NCBI GenBank assembly: GCA_004153385.1
Contig: SDAL01000003.1
Span: 62,001 to 126,000, forward strand
From: Paracoccaceae bacterium
GTDB taxonomy: Bacteria; Pseudomonadota; Alphaproteobacteria; Rhodobacterales; Rhodobacteraceae
DNA length: 64,000 nt
Direction of reading: 5' to 3'
The stretch's first letter is position 1. Every line of letters begins with the position of its first letter. Below, in pieces: positions 6,661 to 55,774 of this stretch. Made by a program: the position numbers and the translations under genes. The notes beneath the pieces are model-generated. The model did not search any database, was not told where the DNA came from, and worked only from the letters and a program-made list of their open reading frames with translations.

Positions 6661-6664
6661 CATC

Positions 6665-6921
6665 GTCACCACTTTTTTGAAACCAGTTCCTTCATCGCAG
6701 CGAGATCAAGCATCTGCTCGGCCAGCAGCTTCTTCAGCTTGGCGTTCTCGTCTTCGAGCGTCTTCAGCCGCTTTGCCTCCGGCACCGTCATGCCGCCGAA
6801 CTTGGCTTTCTATGTGTAGAAGGTCCCTTCCGACATGCCGTGCTTGCGACACAGGTCCGCACACTTCGTGCTCGGCCAGGATGCCGATGATCTGCACGTC
6901 CGTGAATCTCGTTCGCTTCAT
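6665..6921 (-). pseudogene. IS3-family transposase orfA (frameshift and stop)
   Basis: The helix-turn-helix protein starts MKRTRFTDVQIIGILAEHE, as in IS407-type OrfA. It loses frame just after AEHE. Its continuation CADLCRKHGMSEGTFYT is followed by an in-frame TAG at 6810-6812 where Trp is expected, then KAKFGGMTVPEAKRLKTLED and a leucine-rich coiled coil ending MKELVSKKW. Two independent lesions show long decay. Confidence 0.85.
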
Positions 6922-6984
6922 TATCCGTCCTCAGGTTGGGCCGGACTCTAATCGAGCGTGGAGGAAAAATCCCGTGGCAGGTCA

Positions 6985-7269
6985 GCCTCACTTTGGGCTC
7001 GAACCTGACCTTCGCCGCGCCGCAGGGTCAAACGACTGACCGCGCATCATGCGGCGTCGCTCTCTGTCCAGAGCCGACCTGCGCATGAGGACAATCGGAT
7101 GGCCGTTTTCGGCCAATTAAGATCGCGACCACTTCCTGTCCAAAGTGATGGCATTCACGTCGAGAGGTTCAGAGATCTGTGAAATCGCACTGTGGCCTTT
7201 TGCCAACTGACGCTTTCAATGAAACAGGGGCCCGGCGTTTCTTTATGGCGACCGGAAACCTGGATACGG
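6985..7269. other. Gap between IS remnant and LysR gene
   Basis: I find no gene with recognisable protein character in these 285 bp. Short frames on either strand look like chance frames. Confidence 0.5.
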
Positions 7270-8166: not shown

Positions 8167-8354
8167 GATCTTATCCAGTTTTTCTAAATCTAATAACCAG
8201 AATTACGCGCTTTTGTGAAGTCATTCTTGGCAGTACGGTATCCACCCAAGGAGGACACCCATAGCCGGTTCGGGAGACCGCTGTGGGCCAATCGAAAAAC
8301 AGAGACACGAAATGGCGCGCCCCGAGGCTTCGGGACGCTATGGAGATATGTGCG

Positions 8355-9365: not shown

Positions 9366-9367
9366 CC

Positions 9368-10048
9368 ATGACCACCGGGTTCCGTATCCTCAAACGCGAG
9401 CGCGTCGCTGATCCTGAGATCGTCGCCGAATTCGCCAAGCTGCCCGTCGCCAATGTCTCCGACAGCATGTCGCGCATGACCGCTGCCGGATCGCGCCTGC
9501 GCCCGATGCACACATCCGGCGGCATGGCGGGCGTTGCGCTCACCGTAAAAGCGCGCCCAGGCGACAACCTGATGCTGCATGCGGCCATCGACCGGGCGGT
9601 GCCCGGCGACGTGATCGTTGTCGATGCGGGCGGCGCGCTGGACAACGCGCTGATGGGCGAGCTGATGTTGGCCTACGCGATCAAGAAGGGCGTCGTCGGT
9701 TTTGTCATCGACGGTGCGATCCGTGATCTGGACAATTTCCGCGAAACCAACCTGCCCACTTGGGCGGCGGGCGTCAACCATCGTGGCCCCTACAAGGACG
9801 GCCCCGGAGAGGTGAACGTGCCCATCGCCATTGACGGCATGGTGATTCACCCGGGCGATATCGTCATCGGTGACAGCGACGGTGTGCTCTGCGTGCCGAT
9901 TGAGGGGGCCGAGGCAATCCTGAAAGCAACTCAGGACAAGTCTGCGAAAGAAATCACACAGATGGCCGCCATTGAAGCGGGCACAAACGACCGGACCTGG
10001 GTCGACCGCGCCCTGAAAGAGCGTGGCTGCGCCTTGCCGGAAGCCTGA
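9368..10048 (+). CDS. RraA-family aldolase (HMG/CHA aldolase-like)
   Basis: A 226-residue member of the RraA/4-hydroxy-4-methyl-2-oxoglutarate aldolase family. The diagnostic region GGALDNALMGELMLAYA (near residues 90-106) is followed about 20 residues later by DGAIRD with the substrate-binding Arg and metal-binding Asp. These divalent-metal aldolases split 4-hydroxy-4-methyl- or 4-carboxy-4-hydroxy-2-oxoadipate to pyruvate plus oxaloacetate/pyruvate. An ATG at 9362 overlaps the upstream stop, but GGAGA at 9356-9360 is only 1 base from it and 7 from the ATG at 9368, so the latter is preferred. Its place beside transporters and a tannase fits gallate or protocatechuate 4,5-cleavage products, though ring-cleavage genes are absent here. 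Confidence 0.85.
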   Translation: MTTGFRILKRERVADPEIVAEFAKLPVANVSDSMSRMTAAGSRLRPMHTSGGMAGVALTVKARPGDNLMLHAAIDRAVPGDVIVVDAGGALDNALMGELMLAYAIKKGVVGFVIDGAIRDLDNFRETNLPTWAAGVNHRGPYKDGPGEVNVPIAIDGMVIHPGDIVIGDSDGVLCVPIEGAEAILKATQDKSAKEITQMAAIEAGTNDRTWVDRALKERGCALPEA

Positions 10049-10075
10049 CACACCCGCATGAAACGGAGGAGTAAC

Positions 10076-11029
10076 ATGCTTAATATTTTCAAGAAAACCG
10101 CCATTGCAGGCGCGATGATCCTGTCCGCAGGGGCAGCGCTGGCCGAATATCCCGAAAAGCCGATCGAGGTGATCGTCGGGTATTCGGCCGGCGGCGGCAC
10201 CGATGTGATGGCGCGCACCGCCGCGCCCTTCATCGAGAAATACCTTGGCGACGGCGCAAGCCTTGTCGTCAAGAACATGCCCGGTGCCTCGGGCCAGATC
10301 GGCGTCACCGAGGCGGCCAATGCCGACCCGGATGGCTACACACTTGGCACCTTCAATCTGCCGGGCATGATGGCCCGCACCATCGACCGCGAGGCCGGCT
10401 ACGATCGCGACAGCTTTACCTATCTGGCCAACGTGGTGAACGATCCCAACGTCATCGTGACCTCCAAGGCCAGCGGGCTCGATACGCTGGACAAGCTTTT
10501 GGAAGAGGCAAAGGCCAATCCCCTCGCGATCACCGTCGGAATGTCGAGCCTTGGCGGCGATGACCATTTCGCGCTGATCAAGCTTGAGAAGGCGACCGAT
10601 ACCGAGTTCACCATCGTCCCGTTCAAGGGCTCTGCACCGGCACGCACCGCGCTGCTTGGCGGCCATGTTGCCATGGGCATCCTGAACATCTCGGAAGTGG
10701 CCGAATTCCAAGACCAGCTGAACGTGCTGGGCGTTGCCACCAAGGAACGCTCGCCCTTTTCCCCCGACCTGCCGACCTTCAAGGAGCAGGGGCTTGACTT
10801 GGTGAACGGCTCCATGCGCGGCTTTATCGCGCCTGCCGGTTTGCCAGAGGACGTCCAGGCCAAACTGATCGAGGCCTTCTCGCAGCTGTCCGATGATCAG
10901 GAGTTCCTTGACGCCATGGCCGCGACCGCGAACCCGGTTGAAGTGGTGACCGGCGAGGAGTTCAAGCAGCTCACGTCCGATCTCTATGACCTCGCCGACG
11001 GCGTGTGGCAAACCACCCCCTGGAACTGA
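10076..11029 (+). CDS. Tripartite tricarboxylate transporter binding protein (TctC)
   Basis: A 317-residue extracytoplasmic solute receptor (Bug/TctC family). The signal peptide MLNIFKKTAIAGAMILSAG ends at ALA-EYPEKP. The family signature PEKPIEVIVGYSAGGGTDV follows, then GASGQIGVTEAA and PDGYTLGTF. GGAGG lies just upstream of the chosen ATG. It feeds the TctBA permease encoded immediately downstream. A close paralogue lies at 14122 in the same operon. Confidence 0.93.
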   Translation: MLNIFKKTAIAGAMILSAGAALAEYPEKPIEVIVGYSAGGGTDVMARTAAPFIEKYLGDGASLVVKNMPGASGQIGVTEAANADPDGYTLGTFNLPGMMARTIDREAGYDRDSFTYLANVVNDPNVIVTSKASGLDTLDKLLEEAKANPLAITVGMSSLGGDDHFALIKLEKATDTEFTIVPFKGSAPARTALLGGHVAMGILNISEVAEFQDQLNVLGVATKERSPFSPDLPTFKEQGLDLVNGSMRGFIAPAGLPEDVQAKLIEAFSQLSDDQEFLDAMAATANPVEVVTGEEFKQLTSDLYDLADGVWQTTPWN

Positions 11030-38226: not shown

Positions 38227-38775
38227 TTAAAACTGTCTGGAATCATTGTATTTTTCCAGAAAGCAGACGTTCATGCCCTCGGCCTTGATCTGATCGAACA
38301 ACTTTGCCGCATCGGCCGCAGAGGCCTCGGCAGTAGCCCTGATCAACGCGGCTTCGATATTATTGGCCCACACCCAAACGTTCGTGACGCTGTGCCATAC
38401 ATGGGGATCAGTGACTGTCTTGCCGTCTTCATTAAAGCTGCGGGTCTGGGGCCCTTTCGAGAGGACGATAGGCTGCACATCAGCACCGGATGCTTTGGCA
38501 CGCCTCTTGAACCATGCTGCGAGCCCCGCGCCGTTAAAGAAAGTAACTGCCGGATTTCAGGGCCTTGGCATCCTCGGGAGAGGGCTCGTACTCATGCGGG
38601 CGCCATTGGCAAGCACCAGGCTTTGAATGTTCACACGGTTACTGTCCACGTTCTCTATCACGTCCGCAAGAAGGGTATAACTGGCGACGACAACAATCGT
38701 TTTTGCACCGGATGCGGCTGAAAGGCCAAGGGTCAGCGCTATTGAGTTGGTCCGTCTCAGAACCAATCGTTTCAG
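38227..38775 (-). pseudogene. aztC: Decayed zinc-binding periplasmic protein (AztC/ZnuA-like)
   Basis: Fragments in different frames spell a cluster A-I zinc binding protein. The N-terminus gives LGLSAASGAKTIVVVASYTL and LADVIENVDSNRVNIQSLV; after a frameshift AHEYEPSPEDAKAL appears; after stops and deletions PIVLSKGPQTRSFNED and DPHVWHSVTNVWVWANNIEA. The last part ends FDQIKAEGMNVCFLEKYNDS and then stops well before the normal C-terminus. An intact protein is about 300 residues; roughly half is left. Position in the aztA-B-C order supports the assignment. Confidence 0.8.
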
Positions 38776-39515
38776 GGTGAGGCCGAGCGTCGGCTTCGTG
38801 GTAAGACGCAGATAATAGGAGATCAGCAGCCCGCCGAAGCCAGAACCGGCAGCCGTTACAGCAGAAATTAGGAACATTCCGACACGGCTGCGCGACCATA
38901 GCTGCTCAACACCAAAGGGCATCATCATCAGTCCCACAGCCATCAAGGTGCCAAGATATTGGACGCTTGCGACCAGATTGAAAATGACCGGAATCGGGAA
39001 AATAACGTGATATACAGATCCAAATCCCCCACTCACGCGCAAGAAAGGGGCTCGAAGCCCTCGGCCACCAACGGGCGATAGACAAGGGGCAGCTTGATCA
39101 ATGTGAATGATGCGATGGCTCCGAGGAGATAGAGCGCTTGCGCGTCAATCGCCAGAATGGTGCCCGAAAGGATATGCAGCAGACCGATGTTCGATCCGCG
39201 TCGCAACATAATCACTCCCCCTAGTGCAAGAGACGTTAGATAGAAGCTGGCAAAGCGTGCATTTTCATTCACGCTGGGCGTACGAGTGACGACTCCGGGC
39301 ACTCGCGCCACGCTTAGACCCGCCACCAAACCGCCGGGCTCCATCGCCGGCAAAGACAGGTTGCCAACGATCAAACACCCGATTGCAGCATCAGGCAGGA
39401 CAGTATGGCGCATGGCGTCGCTGACCATGCTCATAAGAAGCAGCATCAGCAGAACGCCAGCGGGGCCTGAACGCACACCCAGAGCACATGAGGCAGAAAG
39501 AGCCTGACGCCATAG
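38776..39515 (-). pseudogene. aztB: Decayed zinc ABC transporter permease (AztB/ZnuB-like)
   Basis: Two overlapping frames carry ABC-3-family permease text: MLLLMSMVSDAMRHTVLPDA and PAMEPGGLVAGLSVA in the first, ending EGFEPLSCA at 39033; the second restarts with GGFGSVYHVIFPIPVIFNLV, QYLGTLMAVGLMMMP and GFGGLLISYYLRL. The frame break lies at about 39033-39042. The C-terminal end runs straight into the aztC N-terminus without a stop, showing a small deletion at the junction. Confidence 0.8.
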
Positions 39516-40256
39516 TCAGCAAAAGTTTCGATAATAAAGGAACAAGGGCTGATCCGTGGCTATCGAATGGGCTCGGCACACATCGGCAGTTTCGTCCGAC
39601 GCTTCAAACATGGCGCGGGCAGCCAGAAGGTTCTGCGATGACATTTTGGACTTGGTCGGTCTCCATGCGCTCATCTCGCGTGCCCACAGTAGGGCTTGTA
39701 GACACCACGCGCGCATCTGTCCAAACTCGTGCAACACCGCAATGACGGTACGGACGTCGCGTCGCAAGAGCCAGAAGATCGCGCGTGGTGCGGGCGTCAA
39801 TGGCCGTGAAGGGTCCGTCCAGAACGCTTACCCGCGCATTCTGCAATAACAGGCGGGCAAAGAGAACGTGCTGAAATGTCCCGGTGGAAAGCGCACTGAT
39901 CGGGCGCTTTTCGACATCCTCCATGCCGACGGCCGACAGGGCCTCGTGCATCTAAGTGATGATGGCGGCGGTTGCCCCGCCGAAGGCGCCTGTGCGGCGC
40001 CAGACGCCCGGTAAGACGGTGTCCGGCGACACTGCGTGGAAAGCCGCGCTATCTCAGCGGCTTGGGGCAAATAGATGACATTCCGCGCCGCGAGCCCACC
40101 CCCAGAAATGACGCCTCTTGCAGAACGCAATGCGCCCACAAGCGCCTTGTGTAGTGAGGATTTGCCAGCGCCGTTCGGCCCTGCAATCGCAGCCATTCTG
40201 CCCGGAACAACTACACCTGATACGTGATGGACCGCGGTGTGCTTGTCATACGCCAT
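39516..40256 (-). pseudogene. aztA: Decayed zinc ABC transporter ATPase (AztA/ZnuC-like)
   Basis: Start and Walker A are intact (MAYDKHTAVHHVSG, AIAGPNGAGKSSLHKALVG), then the frame breaks after YLPQAAEIARLSTQ. A second frame holds the altered signature region (ALSTGTFQHVLFARLLLQNA, where LSGGQ is expected) and a degraded Walker B (VSVLDGPFTAID, Gly for Glu). A third frame carries the end, RTVIAVLHEFGQMRAW. At least two frameshifts plus damaged catalytic motifs make it non-functional. Confidence 0.83.
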
Positions 40257-40356: not shown

Positions 40357-40371
40357 TGTTATACCATAACA
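40357..40371. promoter_or_regulatory. Zur-like operator upstream of the aztA pseudogene
   Basis: TGTTAT-ACC-ATAACA, a perfect 6-bp inverted repeat about 100 bp upstream of the aztA start. It resembles the GTTAT...ATAAC core of proteobacterial zinc-uptake-regulator sites and the palindromes at 40728, 43496 and 49233. Confidence 0.6.
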
Positions 40372-40646: not shown

Positions 40647-40727
40647 TGGCTTCTGAACAGCCGCCCAAGGGGACGTTCACAGGCAGGCGGGTATCGCTGA
40701 ATGGCACCTTAATCACTTTTCACGTAT

Positions 40728-40742
40728 TGATATGTTATATCA
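40728..40742. promoter_or_regulatory. Zur-like operator upstream of aztD
   Basis: TGATAT-GTT-ATATCA inverted repeat containing ATGTTATATCAT, about 110 bp before the aztD start. It probably overlaps the aztD promoter, since the surrounding sequence (CACTTTTCACGTATTGATAT) is AT-rich. Assignment to Zur rests on similarity to the other three sites and on the zinc-related genes. Confidence 0.5.
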
Positions 40743-40849
40743 TTTCATTACTAAGGCGGGAAGGACCTCTAAACCGGGATCTGGGTCTGGCGACCGTTCA
40801 TGCACGTCGCCAGACCCATCAGCTCAAAAGAAAAGGAAGGACATACCAC

Positions 40850-42064
40850 ATGCTAAGGACACGGATAGCGCAAGGTAGCATTGCATTGCTCGCGCTTGCC
40901 GCAGCCCAAGGGGCGGCCGCCGACGAAGATCATAGCGCTTGGAGGCTTTTCATTGCAGATCAGGCGAAGGGCACGGTGACCGTGATAGATCGTGACGCGC
41001 CGGATCAGCGATGGAGCTTTGACTTCTCCGGGCCGTCACGGCTTTATGGTTCTCCCTCCGGACAGACGGTGATCGCGGTGCAGTCTGATGACGACCGGGT
41101 CGATTTTCTGCACAGCGGCATCGCGCTGGAGCAACATGGTGACCATTCCGACATCGCGATCAACGATCCTGCAGCGACGGGGATGCATCTGACCGGGCCA
41201 CGGCCGTTCCATGTCGTGACCCATGGCTACGAGACTGCGATTAACTTCGACCGCGGTGGTTATGCTTCGTTTTTGGCCGAGGGCGCGCTGAAAAACGGAA
41301 CGCTCGAAGTCGAGACGTTTTCGCAGAACCGCGCGCATCACGGGTTTGCCGCACAGCTGGGGGATGTGATCATCAGCTCCGTTGCCTCCGAGGAAGAGAT
41401 TGAACAGGGCAGCGCACCGCAGCGCGTGGGGGTTGCAGCCTATCGCGCCGATGGAGAACGGGTGGGAGAGGTTCAGACCTGCACCGACCTGCATGGCGAG
41501 GCTTTCTCGGGCCGCTACTTGCTGGCAGGCTGCAAGGAGGGGGTGATTGCAATAACCCAAGCCGATGAGGGGGCCGATTTCACCATGCTCCCTTACCCGG
41601 AGAGCTTCCCCGAAGAGAAGACCGGTACGTTGCTGGGGTCTGCGGCGATGCAAGTGTTTCTTGGTGACTACGGCCGCGATTCGGTCGTCATCATCGACCC
41701 GACGGAGGCGCCCTACTTCACCCGTGTAGAGCTGCCCTTCCGCCGTGTTGACTTTGTCCTGGATCCTGCCATGCCGCAATACGCCTATATCCTTACCGAG
41801 GACGGGACATTGCACCGGCTGAACATGCTTTCCGCGCGGATCGAAGCCGCCGAGAGCATGACCCAGCCCTATTCCATGGATGGTCACTGGCGTGATCCGC
41901 GCCCAAGGTTGGCTATGGCAGGGGACCGCATCGCGATTACCGATCCGGCGCAAAGCTTGGTACGACTGGTTGATCCCGTCAGCCTTGAAGAAACAGCGAC
42001 CATTCCGGTCGAGGGGCTGCCATACAACATCCTTGCCGTCGGAGGCAGCGGCCTGATGCATTGA
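40850..42064 (+). CDS. aztD: Periplasmic zinc metallochaperone AztD
   Basis: A 404-residue secreted protein with signal peptide (MLRTRIAQGSIALLALAAAQ, cleavage near GAAA-DEDH). The beta-propeller-like repeats contain sheet motifs such as RLFIADQAKGTVTVIDRD and VSLEETATIPVEGLPYNIL; a His-rich stretch is EQHGDHSDIA near residue 91. In Paracoccus AztD hands zinc to the AztC binding protein. Here it is intact, whereas aztABC next door are pseudogenes, so its present partner is unclear. An AAGGAAGG ribosome site precedes the ATG at 40850; a longer frame starts from TTG at 40727 inside the operator and is rejected. Confidence 0.88.
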   Translation: MLRTRIAQGSIALLALAAAQGAAADEDHSAWRLFIADQAKGTVTVIDRDAPDQRWSFDFSGPSRLYGSPSGQTVIAVQSDDDRVDFLHSGIALEQHGDHSDIAINDPAATGMHLTGPRPFHVVTHGYETAINFDRGGYASFLAEGALKNGTLEVETFSQNRAHHGFAAQLGDVIISSVASEEEIEQGSAPQRVGVAAYRADGERVGEVQTCTDLHGEAFSGRYLLAGCKEGVIAITQADEGADFTMLPYPESFPEEKTGTLLGSAAMQVFLGDYGRDSVVIIDPTEAPYFTRVELPFRRVDFVLDPAMPQYAYILTEDGTLHRLNMLSARIEAAESMTQPYSMDGHWRDPRPRLAMAGDRIAITDPAQSLVRLVDPVSLEETATIPVEGLPYNILAVGGSGLMH

Positions 42065-42298: not shown

Positions 42299-43462
42299 TC
42301 ATGCGCGGACGATCACGCCCGGCACATTGTTATTCAGCATCGTTTCGTTCGGCTGGAAGTGAATGACCGAACGGATGGACTTGCCCGCATGCAGCAGATC
42401 AAAGGCTGTATTTATTTGTTCATGCGTCATGTTGTGGGTGATGTAGGGATCAACGTCGAACTCGCCCCGCAGCCATTCGTCAACCATGCCCGGCAGTTGG
42501 CTACGACCCAGCACCCCCCCGAAGGCAGATCCGCGCCAGACCCGGCCCGTGACCAGCTGGAACGGCCGCGTGGCGATTTCTTCACCCGCGCCAGCCACAC
42601 CAATCACGGTGCATTCACCCCAGCCCTTGTGGCAGCATTCAAGCGCCGCCCGCATGACATTTACGTTGCCGATGCATTCGAAACTATAATCTACACCTCC
42701 GTTCGTCATCTCAACGATGACGTCCTGTATCGGTTGAGAAAAACTGGCGGGGTTGATGCATTCGGTTGCGCCAAGCTGCTGTGCCAGCGCGAATTTCTCG
42801 GGGTTGGTGTCGATCCCGATAATCCGGCCCGCCCCTTGCATCTTTGCGCCCTGGATCACCGCCATACCGACGGCGCCAAGGCCGAAGACAGCAACCGTCG
42901 CACCAATCTCGACCTTGGCGGTGTTACGCACCGCACCCATACCGGTAGGGATCGCGCAGCCCATCACGCTCGCTTTTGACAGCGGCGCTTCTTTCGAAAT
43001 TTTCGCGACGGCGATTTCAGGCAGCACCGTGTATTCCGCAAAGGTCGAGGTGCCCATGTAGTGATGGATCTTGCGCCCTTTGTAGCTGAAGCGCGACGTG
43101 CCATCGGGCATCACGCCTGCGCCTTGGGTCTTGCGGATGGTCTGGCAAAGGTTGGTCTTGCCCGACTTGATGTAGGGGCAGTTCGGGTCTTCGGGGGTAT
43201 AGAGCGGGATCACGTGATCACCGGGCTTTACAGAAGTCACACCTGCGCCAAGCTCCTCGACGATCCCGACAGCCTCGTGCCCCAGCACGGCGGGAAACAG
43301 CCCCTCTGGGTCCGCGCCCGAAAGGGTGAACATGTCGGTGTGGCAAAGACTGGTGGTAACGATCCGGATCAGGACTTCTCCCTCCTTCGGACCATCCAGA
43401 TCGATTTCCTCGATTTCGAGCGGGCGGTTGGGTTCCCAAGCGACAGCGGCGCGGATCTTCAT
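42299..43462 (-). CDS. Class III alcohol dehydrogenase/S-(hydroxymethyl)glutathione dehydrogenase paralogue lacking part of the structural zinc site
   Basis: A 387-residue zinc-type MDR dehydrogenase of the AdhC/FrmA class (glutathione-dependent formaldehyde oxidation). Catalytic zinc ligands are present: Cys40 (SLCHTD), His62 (GHE) and Cys169 (GCAIPTG). NAD motif is [10 protein letters not shown]. The structural-zinc loop, normally four Cys as C-x2-C-x2-C-x7-C, reads [17 protein letters not shown]: the first Cys is Asp92 and the third Ile98; only Cys95 and Cys106 remain. A C-terminal tail of about 15 residues ([18 protein letters not shown]) is also unusual. A Zur-like palindrome lies 34 bp upstream. 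Inference: a zinc-sparing isoform for zinc starvation. Start [10 protein letters not shown] chosen by homology to the family. Confidence 0.88.
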
Positions 43463-43495
43463 GATGCGTTTCCTTGTTGTGATGCCAAGTGATAA

Positions 43496-43510
43496 TGTTA
43501 CATAGTAACA
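43496..43510. promoter_or_regulatory. Zur-like operator between adh and the GlxA-type regulator
   Basis: TGTTAC-ATA-GTAACA, a perfect 6-bp inverted repeat with a wider imperfect symmetry (AAGTG...CACTT). It is placed to control adh (minus) and possibly the divergent regulator (plus). The shape is the same as TGTTAT-ACC-ATAACA upstream of aztA. Confidence 0.6.
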
Positions 43511-43584: not shown

Positions 43585-44607
43585 ATGGCGACAGACCAAG
43601 GGGTTGCGCACCGGATGGATCAGAGGCGAGAGGTCGCGCTGATCGTTTATCCCGGCTTCAAGACGCTGGAGGCAACCGGGCCGCTCAGCGTTTTGGGATA
43701 TGCGTCCCAACATCTGGCTGCCGCGGGGCGGGCGGGTGGTTACGATGTTGTCATCGCCGCGCCGAAGGCTGGCCACATTCCGTCTGACACGTTGATGTCG
43801 CTTCAGGCGTCCGTCGCGCTGTGTGATCTCGGGGCGCCCGATACGGTGCTTATTGCCGGGGCGGCCCGCATTGAGGAAGCCTTGGTGCAGGAACCGGATC
43901 TGGTGGCGTGGTGCCGCGACAACGGGCAGAATGTGTCGCGCTGCGCGGCCCTGTGCACAGGATCGTTTTTTCTGGCCGAGGCCGGATTGCTGCACGAAAA
44001 ACGCGCCGCGACGCATTGGAATTACGCGGACCGGCTTCGTCGGCGTTTTGCCGATATCGACGTGGATGCCGATGCGATTTTCGTGCAGGCGGGCCGTTTC
44101 TGGACGTCGGCCGGAGTGACGGCCGCCATCGACCTGACGCTGGCCTTCGTTGAACAGGATTACGGCCGCGATATTGCGCTGGCCGTGGCCCGCGACATGG
44201 TGATGTACCTCAAAAGACCCGGTGGCCAATCCCAGTTCAGTACGCTTCTGACCGGACAGATGTCCGGTCCAAGCGGTTTGGGCGACGTGCTGACCTGGAT
44301 GAGTGCGCGGTTGGACCAGCCTTTGACTTTGGAAGAAATCGCCAGCGAACATCGCATGAGCGTGCGCAGCCTGACGCGCGCCTTCACCGCCGGTTTCGGT
44401 GCCTCGCCCATGGCGACGCTGGAGCGCCTGCGGTGTGAGCGGGCAAAGGCGCTGCTGCTTGATACCGATCTGCCGTTGAAGACGGTGGCCTTTCGTGCGG
44501 GGTTCCGTACGGACGAGCAGATGCGTAAGACCTTCCGTCGCCGGTTTTCCTTGTCACCGCGCGAGTATCGGGCACGCTTTGCAACCTCTGGCAACCCGGC
44601 CGAGTGA
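43585..44607 (+). CDS. GlxA-type AraC-family regulator with DJ-1/PfpI-like domain
   Basis: A 340-residue transcription factor. Residues 10-190 form a glutamine-amidotransferase-like (DJ-1/PfpI) domain: VALIVYPGFKTLEATGPLSV, and CAALCTGSFFLAEAGLL with the nucleophile-elbow Cys. Residues 235-330 hold the AraC double HTH (TLEEIASEHRMSVRSLTRAF and LKTVAFRAGFRTDEQM). The relation to zinc is unclear: it shares the promoter region with the Zur-controlled adh gene and may regulate it in response to an aldehyde or thiol signal. ATG at 43615 is an alternative start. Confidence 0.88.
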   Translation: MATDQGVAHRMDQRREVALIVYPGFKTLEATGPLSVLGYASQHLAAAGRAGGYDVVIAAPKAGHIPSDTLMSLQASVALCDLGAPDTVLIAGAARIEEALVQEPDLVAWCRDNGQNVSRCAALCTGSFFLAEAGLLHEKRAATHWNYADRLRRRFADIDVDADAIFVQAGRFWTSAGVTAAIDLTLAFVEQDYGRDIALAVARDMVMYLKRPGGQSQFSTLLTGQMSGPSGLGDVLTWMSARLDQPLTLEEIASEHRMSVRSLTRAFTAGFGASPMATLERLRCERAKALLLDTDLPLKTVAFRAGFRTDEQMRKTFRRRFSLSPREYRARFATSGNPAE

Positions 44608-44645: not shown

Positions 44646-45296
44646 TCAGTGAATATACCCTGTTCCGGCCTCCTGTTTTGGGTCTGTGACCGGATCAAGC
44701 ACAAGCAAAAGGCGTGTTTCACCGGTGCCGGCGATCGGGGGCGACCGGTGCAGCAGGCCTGACAGTGGGGTCTCGGGCCAGCGCGTCCCGCGTAGCACGA
44801 TGGGCGAGCCGGTTGGGACGCTCAGGGCGGTGGTGGGGTCATCGCCAGTGCCAAAAATTCCGACTTGCGTCCCGGCGCCCCGATAGGTGCAGATCAGCCG
44901 GGCAGTTACCGCGTCGACATGGAACCTGCGACAGGCGTTGGTCTGGATGACATCCAGTCGCAGCTGCAGGTAGGCGCAGGTCATGACATCGGCAAAGATC
45001 GCCGCCAACGCCGAGACATCCTCGATCAACATGCTGCGCTCAGGGCACTCCGGCGTGCCGCACGCGCGCACCACTTCGATCAGCGCATCGCAGACCGCCT
45101 CGGGCTTGAGTATGATGCGCGCGCGGGGCAATTGCTCTGGCGGTAGGGCGTCGATCCAGGTTTGAAAACGACTAAGCGGTGTGCGTTGCCAGAGTGTGGC
45201 GGCGATGCCGGGCTGGTGCACGGCGGCCAGACCTTCGGGGCCTGACGCGACATGCGTGCATCGCTTCAGCTCTGCGGTTCCCATCATCATCCTCAT
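44646..45296 (-). CDS. DUF1826 family protein of the zinc-starvation island
   Basis: A 216-residue protein I recognise as DUF1826, a family that frequently sits in Zur-controlled clusters. Two Cys/His groupings (VRACGTPECPERS; TNACRRFHVDAVTARLICTY) and the late LLHRSPP could bind metal. Its ATG overlaps the upstream gene's stop (ATGA). Function is unknown; suggestions in the family are metal handling or 2-oxoglutarate-type oxygenation (HVD...H spacing), which I cannot confirm. Confidence 0.72.
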   Translation of the reverse strand: MRMMMGTAELKRCTHVASGPEGLAAVHQPGIAATLWQRTPLSRFQTWIDALPPEQLPRARIILKPEAVCDALIEVVRACGTPECPERSMLIEDVSALAAIFADVMTCAYLQLRLDVIQTNACRRFHVDAVTARLICTYRGAGTQVGIFGTGDDPTTALSVPTGSPIVLRGTRWPETPLSGLLHRSPPIAGTGETRLLLVLDPVTDPKQEAGTGYIH

Positions 45297-45775
45297 GCCT
45301 CCGCTAGCTGGTAGGGCAGCGACGAGTGGTGCAGGACGATACGCAAGCTGCCATCATCGTCTTTTTTGTAGCCAAAGCTCTTGTCGACCGTGGTGAGCGC
45401 ACCGTCCTTGTCGAAAAGCCGTATCCGGCCCATCCACATCGCGATGTCACCCTGAATGAAACTGGCGGCGGTGATGCTCTCGGTCGTCCGCCAGCCCCTG
45501 ATCGCGAAGCCGTTGTCGAGGGGATAGTCGTCACAATGGCCGCAGAAATAGGCCAGCGCGCCAGCCTTCGTCGGACGGAAGGTCTGTTCACCGCTCGTCA
45601 TCGTCGGTTTGAACAGAACCGGCCCGAGGTTGTAGCCGTAGTAGGCATCAAGGTTGGCCGAGGCGATCTGGCGTGCGGCCTTGATGCCGCCTTCTTCGAA
45701 AGCCTTGGAAATGGCGATCTTGCCATTGCCCCAGGTCACGAGGGCCTGCTCTATTTCTTCTTCGGTGATCTGCAT
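45293..45775 (-). CDS. SnoaL/NTF2-like protein of the Zur island
   Basis: A 160-residue protein with the pattern of a SnoaL/CaMKII-association-type fold: helical N-terminus (ITEEEIEQALVTWGNGKIAI), then beta strands ending LRIVLHHSSLPYQ. Homologues in zinc clusters are often annotated as phosphoribosyl-AMP cyclohydrolase, but none of the HisI cysteine motifs is present, so I avoid that name. Two Cys/His (YFCGHCDDYP) near residue 77-86 may bind metal. It overlaps both neighbours by a few bases, implying one transcript from the COG0523 gene downwards. Confidence 0.7.
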   Translation of the reverse strand: MQITEEEIEQALVTWGNGKIAISKAFEEGGIKAARQIASANLDAYYGYNLGPVLFKPTMTSGEQTFRPTKAGALAYFCGHCDDYPLDNGFAIRGWRTTESITAASFIQGDIAMWMGRIRLFDKDGALTTVDKSFGYKKDDDGSLRIVLHHSSLPYQLAEA

Positions 45776-47737
45776 GTTGGGATCCTTTTGGGGGAGTGTC
45801 GGTCAGGGGGCCTTGGCTCAGTCAGCGCGGGGGGCTTTGCCTCTGCCTGCAGGGCCGCGACGGCGGCTTCCAGCGAAAGCGTCGGGGTGCTGGTCGCGCC
45901 ATAGCGGCGGAGGGACACCGTCCGCTCCTTTGCCTCCCGCCCGCCCGGGGCGATCTGCACGGGACTCTTGGTAAGCGCGCGCTCGCGCACGTTGTCGCTG
46001 ATCTTTTCGTCGCGCAGGGTGGTGCCCACCCGCAATCTGGCGGCCGTCAGGTGCGTTGCAACGTTGCGCGCCCGGTCATCTGCGGGCCCCGTCACCATGG
46101 CGACGACGGCCTGACCGGGCGCGAGCCATAGCGGCAGGTGGCCTGCGTGGTGCTCGATCACAATGCCGCTGACCCGTTCAACCGAGCCGAACAGCGCGCG
46201 GTGTAGCAGTGCGGGGGCCAGCTTCTCGCCTGAAGAGGCCACATTGGTGGTGGCGAAGCGTTCGGGCAGGTTGAAATCCACCTGCAGCGTGGCGCACTGC
46301 CAGCCCCGCCCGATGGCATCGCGCAGCACATGTTCCAGTTTCGGCACGTAGAAAGCGCCTTCGCCCGCAAAGATCGTGTAGGGATGATCCGCCCGGTCCA
46401 GCGCGTCACGCAACGCGCCTTCCGACCCGCCCCAGCTTTCATCGCTGCCGATCCGGTTTTCGGGGCGGGGCGACAGCTTGATGCGCACATCTTCGACGCC
46501 GAAGTCGCGGTAGATCGACAGGACGAGGTCGTCGACCGCCAGACATGCGTCGGTCAGCCGGTCGGGCGTGCAATAGATATGTGCATCGTCTTGGGGGAAG
46601 CGGCGCAGGCGCAGAAGGCCATGCAGCGCGCCCGAGGGGGCGTCGCGATGTACCTTGCCGACTTCAGCGCGTTTCAGAGGCAGATCGCGGTAACTTTTCG
46701 AGCCCTGCCCGTAGATCCGCATGTGACCGGGGCACCTCATCGGTTTCAGGGCATAGTTGCGATCGTCCACCGTCTCGGCCAGAAGCATGTTGGCGCGGTA
46801 GGTCTGCCAGTGGCCAGAGATCTCCCACAAGGCGCGAACCATGATGTCGGGGGAGTCCACTGCAACATATCCCGCCTGTTCCTGCCGGTCGCGCATGTAG
46901 CCGGTCAGTGTCGGGAACAGGCGCCAGCCCTTGGGATGCCGGAGCATGGACCCCGGCGCGACCTCCTCGAGGTGGGCGAGAGGTATCTCGCGCCCCAGCC
47001 TGCGGTGATCGCGTTTTTCGGCGTCGGCCATCATGATCATGTGCCCATCAGGCATTGTTTTGTCGGCAAAGGTCACGCCGGAGATCCGGCTGGGCATCTT
47101 GTAATTGCTGTCGCCACGCCAATACGCACCGGCCACAGGGGGCAGCCTGCACGCCGCGCCCGCATCAGCGGTGGTGCGCATGTGCGGCCCCCGGCACAGG
47201 TCGAGCCAATCTCTCTGGTGGTAGATTGTCACCGGCTCGCCCTTTGATATCGCGCTCAAGAAGCGCCAGTTTGTAGGGTTTTCCCGCCGCCTCGTAATAG
47301 GCACGGGCGTCCTCGCGGTTCCATGTTTCGCAGATAAAGGGCACCTTGGCCGCAATGATCTGGTGCATCTTTTCTTCAATCACGGGAAGGCCTTCGGGCG
47401 TGAAAGGCGTGTCGCGCTCGAAATCGTAGTGAATGCCGTCCTCGATCGCCGGGCCGGTGGCAGTCTTTGTGTCGGGCCAGAGCGCCTGCACCGCCTCGGC
47501 CGGAACATAGGCCAAATCGTGGCGGATCAGCTCAACTGCCCGAGGATCATCGCGCGATAGAAGCACGACGGAGGCGCCGTCCGGCAGGGGTGCCGACAGG
47601 TCGCAGAGCGTGCCGTCGACAACTGCCGCAACCGTGCGCTTTGCGAGGCGCGGGCTGATGGCGCTCGCAAGGTCAGTGGCAGAGCTGGATGGCGCAAGTG
47701 GGCGGGTGGCCCTCTCAGGCAGGTGGACATGTCTCAT
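45751..47737 (-). pseudogene. thrS: Second threonyl-tRNA synthetase, frameshifted (Zur-island paralogue)
   Basis: Together two frames encode about 660 residues like a complete ThrRS: TGS domain, editing domain, class II catalytic core and anticodon domain. The frame breaks at a C/G run (47240-47242), where ...LLERDIKG should continue as EPVTIYHQRDWLDLCRGPH. The editing motif HxxxH reads RHDLAYV (His73 kept, His77 to Tyr). Catalytic zinc ligands look kept: Cys in KPMRCPGH, His in DDAHIYCT and His in LLHRAL. Motif 2 is altered (HRDAPSGAL instead of HRNEPSGAL). It could be a real pseudogene or a one-base sequence error in a divergent paralogue. Confidence 0.82.
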
Positions 47738-48023: not shown

Positions 48024-49196
48024 TCAGAACGGCATTTCGATGGTTTCAACCATCATACCGCCGGCAAACGAGCTGTTTTTATCGTCCTGCGGCTTGGCCA
48101 GCAGCATCCCGAGGCTGGCCTTCAACTCTGCCTCATTCATGTCCCGTGCGATCACCACAATATGGCTGGTGTTGTCCTCTCCCGACCAGTTCTTGACGGG
48201 CACCGGCGCGTCAAAGATGTGCTGTACTGCGTGAAACACGAACGGATGGTTCAGCCCCTCTACATGAACGATACCCTTCATGCGCAACACATTTGGCCCC
48301 TTGAGCGCGATCAGCGTCTCCAGCCAGAGATCAAAGATCTCTGCCGGAATAGCCTCCACGACCGAGATGGAGGCCGAGATAATGCGGTGATCGTGCCCGG
48401 CGTGGCGAGGCCCTGCCGCCGGAGCGAGGTTCGCTGTGGCGACCGCCTTTGGTGCGACGGAGGGGGCACCAAAGCCCGATAGCCCGACGAGTGGGTCTGG
48501 TCTCGTCGATGCAGCCTTCAGCCCCAACCAAGTGTCGATCTCCGAGGCGTCTGCCCCAAGCCGCATCGCTGACAGTCCGAACAAAGTACCTGTAGGGACT
48601 TGGCCATGGTTTGCCGTAATGCGCCGGGCTGTAGCATTGATCCCGTCCAGTCGCTTCTTGAAACGGCCCAAGGTGAGCGCGTCCGTGATGTCGGTCTTGG
48701 ACAGGATGAGCACGTCGGCCATGGCCACCTGCTGCACCGCCTCGAACTGTGCATCGAGCGTGCGCGCGCCTGTTGCTGCATCTGCCAGCGTCACTACGCC
48801 GTCCAGCCGCAGGGCCTGAGCCAGCTGCCGGTCCGACGCCAGCGTGTGGATGATCGGAGCGGGATCGGCGATGCCGCTGGTTTCGATGACGACGCGATCA
48901 AATGCGATCTCGCCGTTCTGCCGGCGCCTGCACAGGGCCAAAAGTGCTTCAGACAGATCCCCGAGCACGGTGCAGCACAGGCAGCCAGAGGACAACAGGA
49001 CGGTTTCTTCCGTCGCGTCCTCGATCAGGTCATGATCTAGACCGACATCGCCGAATTCATTCACAACGACTGCAATGCGCCCGGCGTCCGGGTCCCGAAT
49101 AAGGTGGTTCAGCAGCGTTGTTTTCCCCGCCCCGAGGAACCCTGTCAACAAGGTGACGGGAATACGATTGTCTGGCGCTGCCATAGGAATGCTCAT
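48024..49196 (-). CDS. COG0523-family GTPase (ZigA/YciC-like zinc metallochaperone)
   Basis: A 390-residue G3E GTPase. Walker A is TGFLGAGKTTLLNH near residues 18-31; the metal motif GCLCC lies at residues 71-75; guanine specificity SKTD near residue 176; a His-rich linker PRHAGHDHR near residue 280, and the CobW C-terminal domain from about 287. Such proteins are induced in zinc starvation and deliver zinc to client enzymes. The gene is divergent from the hisI paralogue across a Zur-like palindrome and heads the minus-strand operon (yidD, thrS, SnoaL-like, DUF1826). Confidence 0.9.
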   Translation of the reverse strand: MSIPMAAPDNRIPVTLLTGFLGAGKTTLLNHLIRDPDAGRIAVVVNEFGDVGLDHDLIEDATEETVLLSSGCLCCTVLGDLSEALLALCRRRQNGEIAFDRVVIETSGIADPAPIIHTLASDRQLAQALRLDGVVTLADAATGARTLDAQFEAVQQVAMADVLILSKTDITDALTLGRFKKRLDGINATARRITANHGQVPTGTLFGLSAMRLGADASEIDTWLGLKAASTRPDPLVGLSGFGAPSVAPKAVATANLAPAAGPRHAGHDHRIISASISVVEAIPAEIFDLWLETLIALKGPNVLRMKGIVHVEGLNHPFVFHAVQHIFDAPVPVKNWSGEDNTSHIVVIARDMNEAELKASLGMLLAKPQDDKNSSFAGGMMVETIEMPF

Positions 49197-49232
49197 TTCT
49201 GTACATTTCGTGTTTCGCGTTCACAGTATGTT

Positions 49233-49249
49233 ATGTAATATCATTACAT
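49233..49249. promoter_or_regulatory. Zur-like operator between the COG0523 gene and hisI paralogue
   Basis: ATGTAAT-ATC-ATTACAT, a perfect 7-bp inverted repeat 36 bp upstream of the COG0523 start and 23 bp upstream of the hisI-like GTG, embedded in GTATGTTATGTAATATCATT. It could repress both genes. Confidence 0.62.
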
Positions 49250-49272
49250 TATGCAAGAGAGGAGGATGGAGG

Positions 49273-49719
49273 GTGGATGAAGGACTGGAGTTTCGCGCAC
49301 GTCAGAGCATTGAACAGGTCGAGGAAGGCACCGAGCTTGCGCCCAAGTTCGGTGCTGATGGCCTCATGGCCTGCATCACGACGGATGCACAAAGTGACGA
49401 GGTTCTGATGCTTGGCTCGATGAATGAAAAGGCCTTTCGCCTTACACTCGAGACTGGTGAGGCGCATTATTTCAGCCGTGCCCGGCAGGTGCTTTGGCAC
49501 AAAGGTGTGACCTCCGGACTGGTCCAAAAGGGGATTGAGGCGCGTATCGACGACGATCAGGATGCGCTCTGGCTGCGGGTCGCGATCAGTGGCTCGGGCG
49601 CGTCCTGCCATGTGGGCTACCGGTCGTGCTTTTACCGGGCCGTGCCGCATGGCGGGCAAGTGGATCAAGCGTTGAGCTTCGTCGAAGATCGCAAGACCTT
49701 CGATCCGGTGGCAGTGTAG
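49273..49719 (+). CDS. hisI: Phosphoribosyl-AMP cyclohydrolase paralogue with altered zinc ligand
   Basis: A 148-residue HisI. Family text includes MACITTDAQSDEVLMLGSMN, AFRLTLETGEAHYFSRAR and the C-terminal SCHVGYRSCFYR. The enzyme opens the purine ring of PR-AMP in histidine synthesis and needs zinc. Two of three zinc cysteines are here (Cys112, Cys119); the first, normally the Cys of DCDxDAL, is Asp94 (IDDDQDAL). GTG at 49273 is preceded by GGAGG at 49261-49265, which fixes the start. Being under a Zur-like site, it probably is a back-up enzyme for low zinc. No other his gene is near. Confidence 0.88.
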   Translation: MDEGLEFRARQSIEQVEEGTELAPKFGADGLMACITTDAQSDEVLMLGSMNEKAFRLTLETGEAHYFSRARQVLWHKGVTSGLVQKGIEARIDDDQDALWLRVAISGSGASCHVGYRSCFYRAVPHGGQVDQALSFVEDRKTFDPVAV

Positions 49720-52737: not shown

Positions 52738-54117
52738 ATGACCGATGCTTTCCTTTCGACAGATGCAATCCGCACATTGTTTTCCCGTGCAATGTCAGTG
52801 ATGTATCGCAACGAGGTGCCTGCCTATGGCACGCTTCTTGATTTGGTCCAAGAGATCAATACACGCGTTCTTGCCGCTGATCCGCAGGAGCGTGCGCGAT
52901 TGCAAAACCTCGACCAGCTCGAGCGCATCAGCGAAGAACGTCACGGGGCCATTCGCCTTGGCACGGCAGCAGAGCTTGCGACGATGCGCCGGTTGTTTGG
53001 TGTGATGGGCATGTATCCGGTGGGCTATTACGATTTGTCTGTGGCGGGCGTTCCCGTCCATTCCACAGCGTTCCGCCCGCTGGAGGATGCAGCGCTTGCG
53101 CGCAATCCCTTCCGTGTGTTCACGTCGCTTTTGCGCCTTGATCTGCTCGATGATGCGGCCTTGCGACAGGAGGCGGCGCGCGTTCTGGATACGCGCCAGA
53201 TCTACACGGCTGGCTGCCTTGAGTTGATTGCCAAGGCAGAAAGGCAGGGCGGATTGGGGCAGACCGACGCCGAGACATTCGTGGCACAGGCGCTGGAAAC
53301 GTTCCGTTGGCATGCCCATGCCAATGTGTCCCATGCGTTCTACCGGCGTTTGCATGACGCGCACCGGCTGGTGGCAGATGTGGTGGCCTTCAAGGGCCCG
53401 CATATCAATCACCTGACCCCGCGCACCCTCGATATCGACACCGTTCAGCGCACAATGCCCCAGCGCGGGATCGTGCCCAAAGCGGTGATCGAGGGCCCGC
53501 CCGCCCGCCGCGTGCCGATCCTGCTGCGCCAGACCTCGTTCAAGGCGCTTGAGGAACCGGTGATCTACAGCGATGGCGGTGAGGCGGTGACGGGCCATCA
53601 CACCGCACGTTTTGGCGAGATCGAACAACGCGGTCAGGCGCTGACGCCCAAAGGTCAGGCACTGTATGACAGGTTGCTGAACGAGGCCCGCGCGGCCGTG
53701 TCGCCGCGCGCGGATGGCAGCAATGGCGCGGCGTATATGGCGCATCTTGCGCAGGTCTTTGCGGCTTTCCCCGATGATCTTGAAACGATCCGTGCGCAGG
53801 GTCTGGGGTATTTCCGCTATACGCCCACCGGTCGTGCGGCCCCGGCAGATGCGGATGAGGCCGACCCCGAGGTCCTGATCCGCGCCGGTGTGCTGCGCGC
53901 CGATCCGATCATCTACGAAGACTTCCTGCCCGTTTCGGCGGCGGGAATTTTCCAGTCCAATCTGGGTGACGCGGCCACACAGGCCTTTGACGCCCATCCC
54001 AGCCGTGCCAGCTTCGAGGTCGCTTTGGGCGCGCAGGTGATCGACCCTCATAGCGGTTACGCACAAACGCAAGAGGCCTCTCTGGCGCAGGCGCGCATGA
54101 CGATGGCCCGCAGCTGA
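52738..54117 (+). CDS. hglS: 2-oxoadipate dioxygenase/decarboxylase (HglS, DUF1338)
   Basis: A 459-residue DUF1338/HglS protein. HglS is a non-haem Fe(II) enzyme that turns 2-oxoadipate into D-2-hydroxyglutarate in D-lysine/pipecolate catabolism. The substrate/metal motif RHGAIRLG gives His69 and Arg73; FKGPHINHLTPRTLDID near residues 220-236 gives the second His; and RFGEIEQRGQALTPKG near residue 290 gives the Glu. These match the HglS site arrangement (His, His, Glu plus Arg). AGAGGAAC precedes the ATG. It is followed by the semialdehyde dehydrogenase gene of the same pathway. Confidence 0.88.
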   Translation: MTDAFLSTDAIRTLFSRAMSVMYRNEVPAYGTLLDLVQEINTRVLAADPQERARLQNLDQLERISEERHGAIRLGTAAELATMRRLFGVMGMYPVGYYDLSVAGVPVHSTAFRPLEDAALARNPFRVFTSLLRLDLLDDAALRQEAARVLDTRQIYTAGCLELIAKAERQGGLGQTDAETFVAQALETFRWHAHANVSHAFYRRLHDAHRLVADVVAFKGPHINHLTPRTLDIDTVQRTMPQRGIVPKAVIEGPPARRVPILLRQTSFKALEEPVIYSDGGEAVTGHHTARFGEIEQRGQALTPKGQALYDRLLNEARAAVSPRADGSNGAAYMAHLAQVFAAFPDDLETIRAQGLGYFRYTPTGRAAPADADEADPEVLIRAGVLRADPIIYEDFLPVSAAGIFQSNLGDAATQAFDAHPSRASFEVALGAQVIDPHSGYAQTQEASLAQARMTMARS

Positions 54118-54138
54118 CACGGGGGGGGCGTTCTTACG

Positions 54139-54176
54139 CGCGCGGGCCCCATTCCAACGCGCGGGCCCCATTCCAA
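54139..54176. repeat. 19-bp tandem duplication
   Basis: CGCGCGGGCCCCATTCCAA occurs twice in direct succession between hglS and amaB, without mismatch. It may be a recent replication slip. The flank also holds a loosely similar pair ACTGACGGACATTC and ATTGACGGGCAGG. Confidence 0.9.
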
Positions 54177-54250
54177 ACTGACGGACATTCAAAATTGACG
54201 GGCAGGTGGGCCAATGGCGCACACGACCCCTTCCACCGAAAGGACCATCC

Positions 54251-55774
54251 ATGACCACGACGCCTTTGCCTGAAGTGACCCGAGATACGATGCGGGCCTG
54301 TGGTGTGACCCTTGATCTGGATATGTCGGGGGGCTTGCAGGTGATCTCGCCTGTCACCGGTGAACGTGTGGCCACTCTCGCGGTGCACACGCTGGCGCAG
54401 GCAGAGGAGGCCATCACCACCGCCCACACGGCCTTTCGGGTCTGGCGCAGTGTGCCGGCCCCGCGTCGCGGTGAACTGGTGCGGCTGTTTGCCGAGGAAC
54501 TGCGCAATGCGAAGGACGATCTGGGCCGCATGGTCTCGATCGAGGCGGGCAAGTCCCCGTCCGAAGGGTTGGGCGAGGTGCAGGAGATGATCGACATCTG
54601 CGACTTTGCCGTGGGCCTGTCGCGCCAGCTTTACGGTTTGACCATCGCGACCGAACGCCCCGGCCACCGGATGATGGAAACATGGCATCCCTTGGGCGTA
54701 GTCGGGATTATCACGGCCTTCAATTTTCCATGCGCGCCATGGTGCTGGAACGCGGCGCTTGCGTTGGTGTGCGGCGATCCGGTCATCTGGAAACCGTCCG
54801 AGAAAACCCCGCTGACGGCGCTGGCGTGTCAGGCTGTGCTGGAGCGGGCGCGGTCGCGGTTCGGTGCGGATGCGCCTGACGGGCTAAGTCAGGTTCTGGT
54901 GGGCGGACCGGAGGTGGGTGCCGCGCTGGTGGCCAGCGACAAGGTCGCGCTGATTTCGGCCACAGGCTCGACCCGTATGGGGCGCATGGTCGCCCCGAAG
55001 GTGGCAGAGCGGTTTGGCAAATGCATTCTGGAGTTGGGGGGCAATAACGCAGGTATCGTCTGCCCGTCGGCGGATCTGGATATGACACTGCGCGCGGTGG
55101 CCTTTGGCGCCATGGGAACGGCAGGCCAGCGCTGCACCACCACCCGTCGCCTGTTTGTGCATGCCTCGGTCTATGACCAGATCGTGCCTGCGCTGAAGAC
55201 GGCCTATGGCTCTGTCACGGTTGGCAATCCACTGTCCTCGGACGCGCTTGTGGGACCGCTGATCGACGGGGTGGCGTTCGAGCACATGACACAGGCGCTT
55301 GAAGAGGCCACACAAATGGGCGGTGTGGTGACGGGTGGTGCGCGTGTGCCCATCGAAACGCAGGCGGCTTATTACGTCAAACCCGCGCTCGTCGAGATGC
55401 CCGAGCACGCAGGGCCGGTTCTGCGCGAGACCTTTGCCCCGATCCTGTATGTGATGAAATACACCGATTTCGACGAGGTGATTGAAACCCATAATGCGGT
55501 GGGCGGCGGGCTGTCGTCTGCGATCTTCACCACCGACCTGCGCGAGATGGAGGTGTTTTTATCTGCACGCGGGTCCGATTGCGGGATCGCCAACGTCAAT
55601 ATCGGCACCTCGGGGGCTGAAATCGGCGGTGCCTTCGGTGGCGAGAAGGAAACCGGCGGCGGGCGTGAAAGCGGATCTGACGCATGGCGGGCCTATATGC
55701 GGCGCGCGACCAATACGATCAATTACTCCAAAGAGCTGCCTTTGGCGCAAGGCGTGGTGTTCGATATCGGGTGA
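54251..55774 (+). CDS. amaB: L-aminoadipate-semialdehyde dehydrogenase (AmaB/ALDH7-type)
   Basis: A 507-residue aldehyde dehydrogenase of the antiquitin/ALDH7 class. Catalytic Glu261 (LELGGNN) and Cys295 (GQRCTTTRR) are clear, and the end GGEKETGGGRESGSDAWRAY plus NTINYSKELPLAQG is diagnostic of this class. It oxidises 2-aminoadipate-6-semialdehyde (piperideine-6-carboxylate) to 2-aminoadipate. With HglS upstream and an AmaA-like oxidase downstream it defines the pipecolate branch of lysine breakdown. The ATG at 54251 follows AAGGACCATCC. Confidence 0.92.
   Translation: MTTTPLPEVTRDTMRACGVTLDLDMSGGLQVISPVTGERVATLAVHTLAQAEEAITTAHTAFRVWRSVPAPRRGELVRLFAEELRNAKDDLGRMVSIEAGKSPSEGLGEVQEMIDICDFAVGLSRQLYGLTIATERPGHRMMETWHPLGVVGIITAFNFPCAPWCWNAALALVCGDPVIWKPSEKTPLTALACQAVLERARSRFGADAPDGLSQVLVGGPEVGAALVASDKVALISATGSTRMGRMVAPKVAERFGKCILELGGNNAGIVCPSADLDMTLRAVAFGAMGTAGQRCTTTRRLFVHASVYDQIVPALKTAYGSVTVGNPLSSDALVGPLIDGVAFEHMTQALEEATQMGGVVTGGARVPIETQAAYYVKPALVEMPEHAGPVLRETFAPILYVMKYTDFDEVIETHNAVGGGLSSAIFTTDLREMEVFLSARGSDCGIANVNIGTSGAEIGGAFGGEKETGGGRESGSDAWRAYMRRATNTINYSKELPLAQGVVFDIG

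Follow-up and report, generated by a model that had tools for sequence, protein, structure and literature searches.

Overall description of the locus

The window analysed here, a stretch of 64,000 nucleotides, carries on its minus strand a gene for a class III alcohol dehydrogenase (ADH) isoform of 387 residues (42299–43462 including the stop codon). The open reading frame starts with an ATG at 43462, ends with its stop codon at 42299 and contains no internal stop. The protein matches NCBIfam model TIGR02818 (S-(hydroxymethyl)glutathione dehydrogenase/class III ADH) over residues 2–369, that is at full length, with 647.3 bits, above the curated equivalog cut-off of 543.95. The nearest solved structures are those of human class III ADH, the S-nitrosoglutathione (GSNO) reductase or GSNOR; the 50 matches listed in a Foldseek search against the PDB are all ordinary GSNOR/ADH entries, with a TM-score of 0.92 to 3qj5. 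The catalytic zinc ligands Cys40, His62 and Cys169 are all present, as had been predicted from the sequence, and together with Glu63 they are retained at every locus of the alignment set compared. The dN/dS of the gene is 0.03–0.05 against five close relatives (L009–L012, L014) and 0.06 against L013, and rises up to 0.12 when L013 is paired with other relatives, all of these ratios being rough because dS is high (0.6–2.3). Purifying selection on the gene is strong. A sigma-70 promoter scan gave a single weak match, which overlaps the start codon.

The gene sits in an island of zinc-starvation genes, as the original prediction had stated. Next to it and divergent from it is a GlxA-type regulator with DJ-1/PfpI and AraC helix-turn-helix domains according to Pfam (43585–44607, plus strand). 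There follow on the minus strand a DUF1826 protein (44646–45296; PF08856, 183.7 bits), a match to the metal-independent carbonic anhydrase model NF047901 (45293–45775; 181 bits, under the cut-off of 350), a second threonyl-tRNA synthetase (ThrRS) gene, thrS2 (45754–47737), interrupted in the window by a frame change, and a COG0523 (CobW/YciC-type) GTPase, a putative zinc chaperone by its profile match (48024–49196). A stand-alone HisI paralogue, hisI2, lies on the plus strand (49075–49719); its PRA-CH domain (88 bits) covers residues 112–187 of the open reading frame, and the true start is probably inside that frame. On the other side of the ADH gene are an AztD-like zinc metallochaperone (40727–42064, plus strand; 360 bits, cut-off 400) and, on the minus strand, aztA-like (39604–40256) and aztB-like (38557–39476) fragments, each spread over two frames as judged by profile matches and frame reading. 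The tblastn marker for aztC had no match near the ADH gene, and the zinc transporter of the island (38557–40256) looks decayed. Since aztA, aztB and thrS2 are split over frames, part of the island looks decayed around an ADH gene that is intact.

The former structural-zinc loop

Few ADHs are as widespread as class III ADH, whose subunits normally bind two zincs each. In the window ADH, the former structural-zinc loop (residues 90–106; 43145–43195, minus strand) holds Asp92, Cys95, Ile98 and Cys106 at the four positions that we take to be the structural-zinc ligands (97/100/103/111 in horse liver ADH). Cysteines 1 and 3 are thus replaced by Asp92 and Ile98, cysteines 2 and 4 remain, and two of the four structural cysteines of the canonical two-zinc enzyme are kept. 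Zinc-binding residues have been lost at the structural site only, with the catalytic site intact. The original prediction had named these two replacements in a loop of normal length; both are found in the 387-residue frame, and the loop is ungapped in the three alignments of the protein to solved class III ADHs.

The loci compared come from named genomes (80 loci), from genomes of the family (394), the class (385) and the phylum (398), and from a plasmid collection; some of the sampled genomes possibly belong to the same species as others in the sample. Sorting of 134 loci by their loop pattern, which itself defines the two classes, gave 29 variant and 103 four-cysteine loci, with L128 (frame-broken) and L129 (a fragment) set aside; no locus besides these two falls outside both patterns. 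In all, 31 variant loci were gathered. The loop is readable at 30 of them and always reads PEDP-x-C-x-x-I-x-SG, the fragment L129 lacking it, and the four-cysteine loci (n = 103) read EC-xx-C-xx-C. Asp92, Pro93 and Ile98 occur in 28/28 full-length variants, none of which has cysteine at position 92 or 98, and cysteine stands at both positions in 103/103 four-cysteine enzymes. Versions of the loop are EDPNCPMIRSG in Gluconobacter and EDPDCPDIKSG in one Paracoccus; in the copy of Erwinia sp. S63 (L015) the fourth cysteine is also gone, with serine in its place.

Outside the loop, the changes fixed in the variants cluster around the catalytic Cys169 (A164, S165, M167, A170, P172) and in a C-terminal extension of about 17 residues (371–387; 42302–42352, minus strand), which is found in the full-length variants and is short or absent in the four-cysteine enzymes. 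Correspondingly, the full-length variants measure 387–394 residues (28/28) and the four-cysteine enzymes 369–376 (n = 103). Asp51, Glu53, Arg110 and Lys279 align with residues that form the hydroxymethylglutathione pocket in human ADH5; all four are unchanged across 40 sequences, eight variants among them. The window ADH therefore resembles canonical class III ADH/FrmA/GSNOR (human ADH5; PDB 3qj5, 1teh) in its fold, catalytic ligands and pocket residues, with 57–71% identity to the four-cysteine bacterial enzymes compared, and differs in Asp and Ile for structural cysteines 1 and 3, in S165, A170 and P172, and in the C-terminal extension. AlphaFold2 models of the variant and of a four-cysteine relative, built with the same 40 sequences, gave pLDDT values for the loop block of 72/64 and 80/68, respectively, without clear separation; because loop confidence is middling in both kinds of model, they say little about zinc. 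Asp92, Cys95 and Cys106 could make up a weak three-ligand zinc site.

The zinc-dependent paralogue in the same genome is L002, a second class III ADH with four cysteines and 59% identity to the window ADH. Such a second enzyme is present in 21 of the 22 variant-bearing genomes (in G540 as two contig pieces); in the one other, G227, it was looked for and not found. Annotated plasmid records name the variant as the ordinary enzyme.

The palindrome upstream of the gene

A putative Zur-like operator, the perfect 15-bp palindrome TGTTACATAGTAACA (TGTTAC-ATA-GTAACA), lies at 43496–43510, 48 bp upstream of the ATG, in agreement with the prediction of such a palindrome just upstream of the gene. When both strands of the window were scanned with up to three mismatches, it was the sole match, 0.16 being expected by chance. 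More telling than this expectation is its conservation, as the palindrome is kept at −47/−48 in closer relatives. It also resembles the Zur motif GTAAYGTAATAACAT of Paracoccus denitrificans, a species that the nearest named copies suggest to be a relative within the Rhodobacterales; this motif is described in passages of PMC5387054 as verified by gel shift and placed at most 50 bp before the start codon. The ADH copy of Paracoccus sp. MA (L149) has AGTAACGTAATAACA at −52, a sequence that includes bases 1–14 of the pden1338 site.

The 3.77-Mb genome to which the window belongs holds 11 copies of the relaxed motif TGTTAYNNNRTAACA when up to one mismatch is allowed, against two occurrences of the reversed pattern. 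Of the 11 copies, two separate a ZnuA gene (216 bits) from the Fur-family gene divergent to it (21.8 bits, just under the Pfam cut-off of 23.1), one overlapping pair precedes another COG0523 gene, and the island holds three: between the aztA remnant and aztD (40357–40371, no mismatch), before the ADH gene, and between the COG0523 gene and the hisI2 domain (49229–49243, one mismatch). Near four of the 11 copies a zinc gene was looked for and none was evident. A one-mismatch copy stands at the left end of the window (105–119), with no zinc gene evident nearby.

A site with at least 11 of the 12 informative bases stands within about 100 bp upstream in 10/30 variants and 0/102 four-cysteine loci, the scan leaving out the variant L129, which begins inside the gene, and the four-cysteine locus L099, whose best site is 8/12. 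Within 250 bp upstream, an 11/12 site is found at three four-cysteine loci (L017, L060, L069). In Marinomonas (L060, L069), the palindrome TGTTATATTATAACT is 145–158 bp upstream of a four-cysteine frmA, which is followed by an fghA-like gene and has a LysR-like gene, so named from its translation, divergent from it. This palindrome could belong to Zur or to the LysR-like regulator; both loci were counted as four-cysteine controls with a site.

Zinc-related genes around the variant loci

The neighbourhoods were compared in the fetched flanks by tblastn, with markers chosen from variant neighbourhoods and with four-cysteine loci of 1.5-kb flanks excluded, so that 31 variant loci stand against 73 four-cysteine control loci, most of them from other taxa. 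COG0523 or DUF1826 was present at 25/31 variant and 0/73 four-cysteine loci; DUF1826 was present at 22/31 variant loci. Any zinc-starvation marker was present at 27/31 versus 4/73 loci, those four having FolE alone, and at least two kinds of marker at 24/31 versus 0/73. FghA, with which the housekeeping enzyme is partnered, gave the opposite pattern (0/31 versus 51/73), and its absence near the variants is a further difference from canonical class III ADH. A fairer control is provided by 14 four-cysteine paralogues from 12 of the variant-bearing genomes themselves. All 14 have the four cysteines, none is near COG0523 or DUF1826, one is near FolE and eight are near FghA, and their best site within 250 bp upstream reaches 9/12.

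Loss of the loop cysteines is thus accompanied by zinc-starvation neighbours or a Zur-like site at 30 of the 31 variant loci, and the 14 paralogues show no such link, which bears out the predicted association of cysteine loss with zinc context. Judged by sequence only, the variants stand under a Zur-type operator or in an operon with Zur-controlled genes, the exceptions being L012 and, weakly, L122. The arrangements differ among the loci, and it follows that the association with zinc genes was maintained or re-established by several routes. The ADH gene may stand alone under the −47 site with the GlxA-type regulator divergent, or directly behind DUF1826 in an apparent operon without a local site (L120, L121, L124, L125, L127). 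In Gluconobacter (L147, L151, L152) the ADH gene belongs to an apparent operon, folE-hisI-zigA-ADH-carbonate dehydratase, whose site is at −2440; on the Gluconobacter albidus plasmid of L147, which is typed as conjugative, this compact row (6616–10742) stands beside a Fur-family gene and DUF1826. In Erwinia, hisI is downstream of the ADH gene (PRA-CH, 112 bits), and in Sagittula stellata the ADH gene adjoins a znuABC-type transporter and a repressor gene.

Four loci have no zinc neighbour. L012 (Ruegeria atlantica) carries the loop with a site of only 9/12, on a contig that ends 1.2 kb upstream; it is the one close relative in which the loop was not seen together with the zinc context of the original prediction, and the other 30 of the 31 agree with that prediction. 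L013, L122 and L167 have 11/12 sites at −216, −214 and −102, respectively. The motif precedes COG0523 genes as well in the genomes of L013 and L167, where it is further found near thrS2 (L013) and before aztA (L167). Relative to the reversed control, the motif is enriched only in the genome of L167 (19 versus 5) and not in the others, the counts being 8 versus 11 for L013, 9 versus 17 for L012 and 5 versus 8 for L122 (G180). No zinc marker was present at the four site loci examined in G180, and among the sites that were given a locus in the L012 and L122 genomes no supporting motif context was found. The zinc link of L122, and partly that of L013, stands on the lone site.

Distribution and origin of the variant

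A tree was built from the 28 full-length variants and 47 of the 103 four-cysteine rows after the columns of the loop and the C-terminal extension had been removed. The 28 variants form a single clade with support 100/100 and a stem length of 0.43, which groups with FrmA of gammaproteobacteria and others. The paralogue L002 and its Rhodobacteraceae-type kin are separated from this clade by a 100/100 branch. A recent copying of the window ADH from the FrmA of its own genome is ruled out by this topology, and acquisition by horizontal transfer therefore appears likelier. The original prediction of a zinc-sparing stand-in for the two-zinc FrmA/AdhC is in line with the mapping of zinc context, with the qualification that the stand-in does not look like a copy of the FrmA of its own genome.

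The loop change appears from the tree to have arisen once; all full-length variants go back to a single event, and the loci are therefore not independent observations. Gluconobacter L147 and L151 have identical proteins. Among named genomes, the variant is carried by Rhodobacterales, Acetobacteraceae (Gluconobacter), a Rhizobiaceae metagenome-assembled genome and an Erwinia. The variant is uncommon: it was found in at least 13 of the 394 family genomes (11 full and 2 partial, the genome of the window included) and in 9 of the 1688 plasmid records that matched at E values up to 1e-100, the loop having been read in all nine.

Proposed role and alternative explanations

We propose, at a probability of roughly 0.78, that the gene is repressed by Zur and encodes a backup S-(hydroxymethyl)glutathione dehydrogenase, each subunit of which needs a single zinc rather than two. 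In this proposal, the enzyme, an S-(hydroxymethyl)glutathione dehydrogenase/GSNO reductase, would have given up the structural zinc and depend on the catalytic zinc only. When zinc is plentiful, zinc-loaded Zur would sit on the 15-bp palindrome and keep the gene off; when zinc is low, the gene would be derepressed along with the rest of the zinc-starvation set. Detoxification of formaldehyde and GSNO would then fall to the isoform, at a single zinc per subunit, and the housekeeping enzyme with its two zincs would go unmetallated or have its zinc released. We infer the loss of structural zinc in the folded protein, the repression by Zur, the substrate and the benefit of sparing zinc.

A different explanation is that the variant is an extra copy that spares no zinc: Zur would raise the dose of class III ADH against poor metallation, and the change of the loop would be incidental, or else made good by a weaker Asp/Cys/Cys site able to take up zinc. 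An acidic residue does serve as a structural-zinc ligand in Sulfolobus ADH, and the variant keeps its catalytic ligands, both of which fit an extra copy. The same holds for the Zur-linked paralogues of HisI, CysRS, ThrRS, QueD and AmiA that keep their zinc residues, for which copy number is offered as an alternative in passages of Haas et al. (2009; PMC2770081). However, Ile98, which is no possible ligand, is fixed in all 28 full-length variants, the Erwinia copy L015 has serine at the fourth position as well, and the loss is retained in copies of at least four families, whereas none of the 103 four-cysteine enzymes varies at position 92 or 98. We therefore consider an extra copy unlikely.

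The ADH might instead belong to a divergent GlxA-type switch that responds to aldehydes or C1 compounds, with the palindrome as its operator and the zinc genes as bystanders on a plasmid-borne island. The regulator is indeed adjacent and divergent at 14 of the 31 variant loci, with the conserved −47 site between both genes (at two more, L147 and L151, it is about 8 kb away), and nine variant loci are plasmid-borne. This arrangement cannot readily account for the occurrence of the same motif at the znuA/Fur-family, azt and COG0523 promoters of the same genome, nor for its likeness to the verified Paracoccus Zur motif. At L013, L119–L127, L166 and L167 the regulator was not found, yet zinc genes or the site are there, and the motif also precedes COG0523 genes in the L013 and L167 genomes and aztA in that of L167. 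A GlxA-type switch is thus a very unlikely explanation.

That the protein is a decaying or neofunctionalised dehydrogenase to which zinc economy is irrelevant, as the broken aztA, aztB and thrS2 next to it, the frame-broken ADH of L128 (G270) and the short ADH of L152 (344 residues) might suggest, is scarcely credible given an intact frame, a dN/dS of 0.03–0.05 and invariant catalytic and pocket residues.

Within the proposed one-zinc backup, the fixed substitutions at Cys169 (Cys165→Ser, Gly170→Ala, Thr172→Pro) and the C-terminal extension suggest, as a doubtful possibility, that the supply of the remaining metal is altered in the variant clade, the enzyme either being served specifically by the COG0523 GTPase next to it or using another metal. 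If so, zinc-starvation metal control would extend to the whole of this dehydrogenase, which would then be more than just one zinc cheaper.

Comparison with known systems

Some MDR enzymes, such as sorbitol dehydrogenase and some bacterial ADHs, have no structural zinc, and they resemble the window ADH in that the fold tolerates its loss. To our knowledge, these losses are old and family-wide, lie outside class III and have no link to zinc starvation.

Haas et al. (2009; PMC2770081) describe, in the passages concerned, nine Zur-linked paralogue families (HisI, PyrC, Cam, HemB, CysRS, ThrRS, AmiA, QueD and DksA), several of whose Zur-linked members are without zinc residues. The window ADH is like these in being a copy beside a zinc-dependent enzyme, in having lost zinc residues, as some of theirs have, and in clustering with COG0523 and Zur sites; it differs in that class III ADH is absent from the nine families and in giving up only one of two sites. 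The word "dehydrogenase" does not occur in the main text of that paper. ADHs are nevertheless named in Zur studies or a review, among them adhA of Corynebacterium and adhP of Neisseria. The review, in a passage in general terms, counts zinc-free paralogues such as alcohol dehydrogenase among Zur-regulated enzymes (PMC6103462). In the relevant passages, adhA of C. diphtheriae is reported to be activated by zinc and Zur (PMC6711530), and adhA of C. glutamicum is called zinc-dependent, its status as a Zur target being unconfirmed (PMC2823685). These passages on Zur-linked ADHs hold no description of a class III isoform lacking the structural site, and among open-licence PMC papers no class III ADH without structural zinc under Zur was found described. 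Hence, Zur-controlled zinc-sparing paralogues are already known, and a class III ADH that surrenders only its structural zinc site would be an addition to them, since ADH is outside the nine families listed and the adhA cases traced are, in the passages cited, zinc-activated or unconfirmed.

The variant thus offers a natural isoform that apparently lacks the structural zinc only and is found in several families within zinc-starvation clusters. It would add the detoxification of formaldehyde and GSNO to the functions that bacteria run on less zinc. It may also be regarded as a natural experiment on the role of structural zinc in ADH, with the two-zinc sister in the same cell as the control.

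Other genes of the island

The carbonic anhydrase-like protein at 45293–45775, relatives of which are near 12 of the 31 variant ADH loci, is possibly a second metal-free stand-in under Zur. The split thrS2 retains the motifs CPGHM, DDAHI and HRAL, which we take to be the zinc ligands of ThrRS; its counterpart is one open frame in the relative L011 and has two stops in L118. Further along the plus strand (52738–55774), a gene for a 2-oxoadipate dioxygenase/decarboxylase (PF07063, 539 bits) is followed by one for an aldehyde dehydrogenase (PF00171, 414 bits), a pair that presumably serves lysine catabolism.
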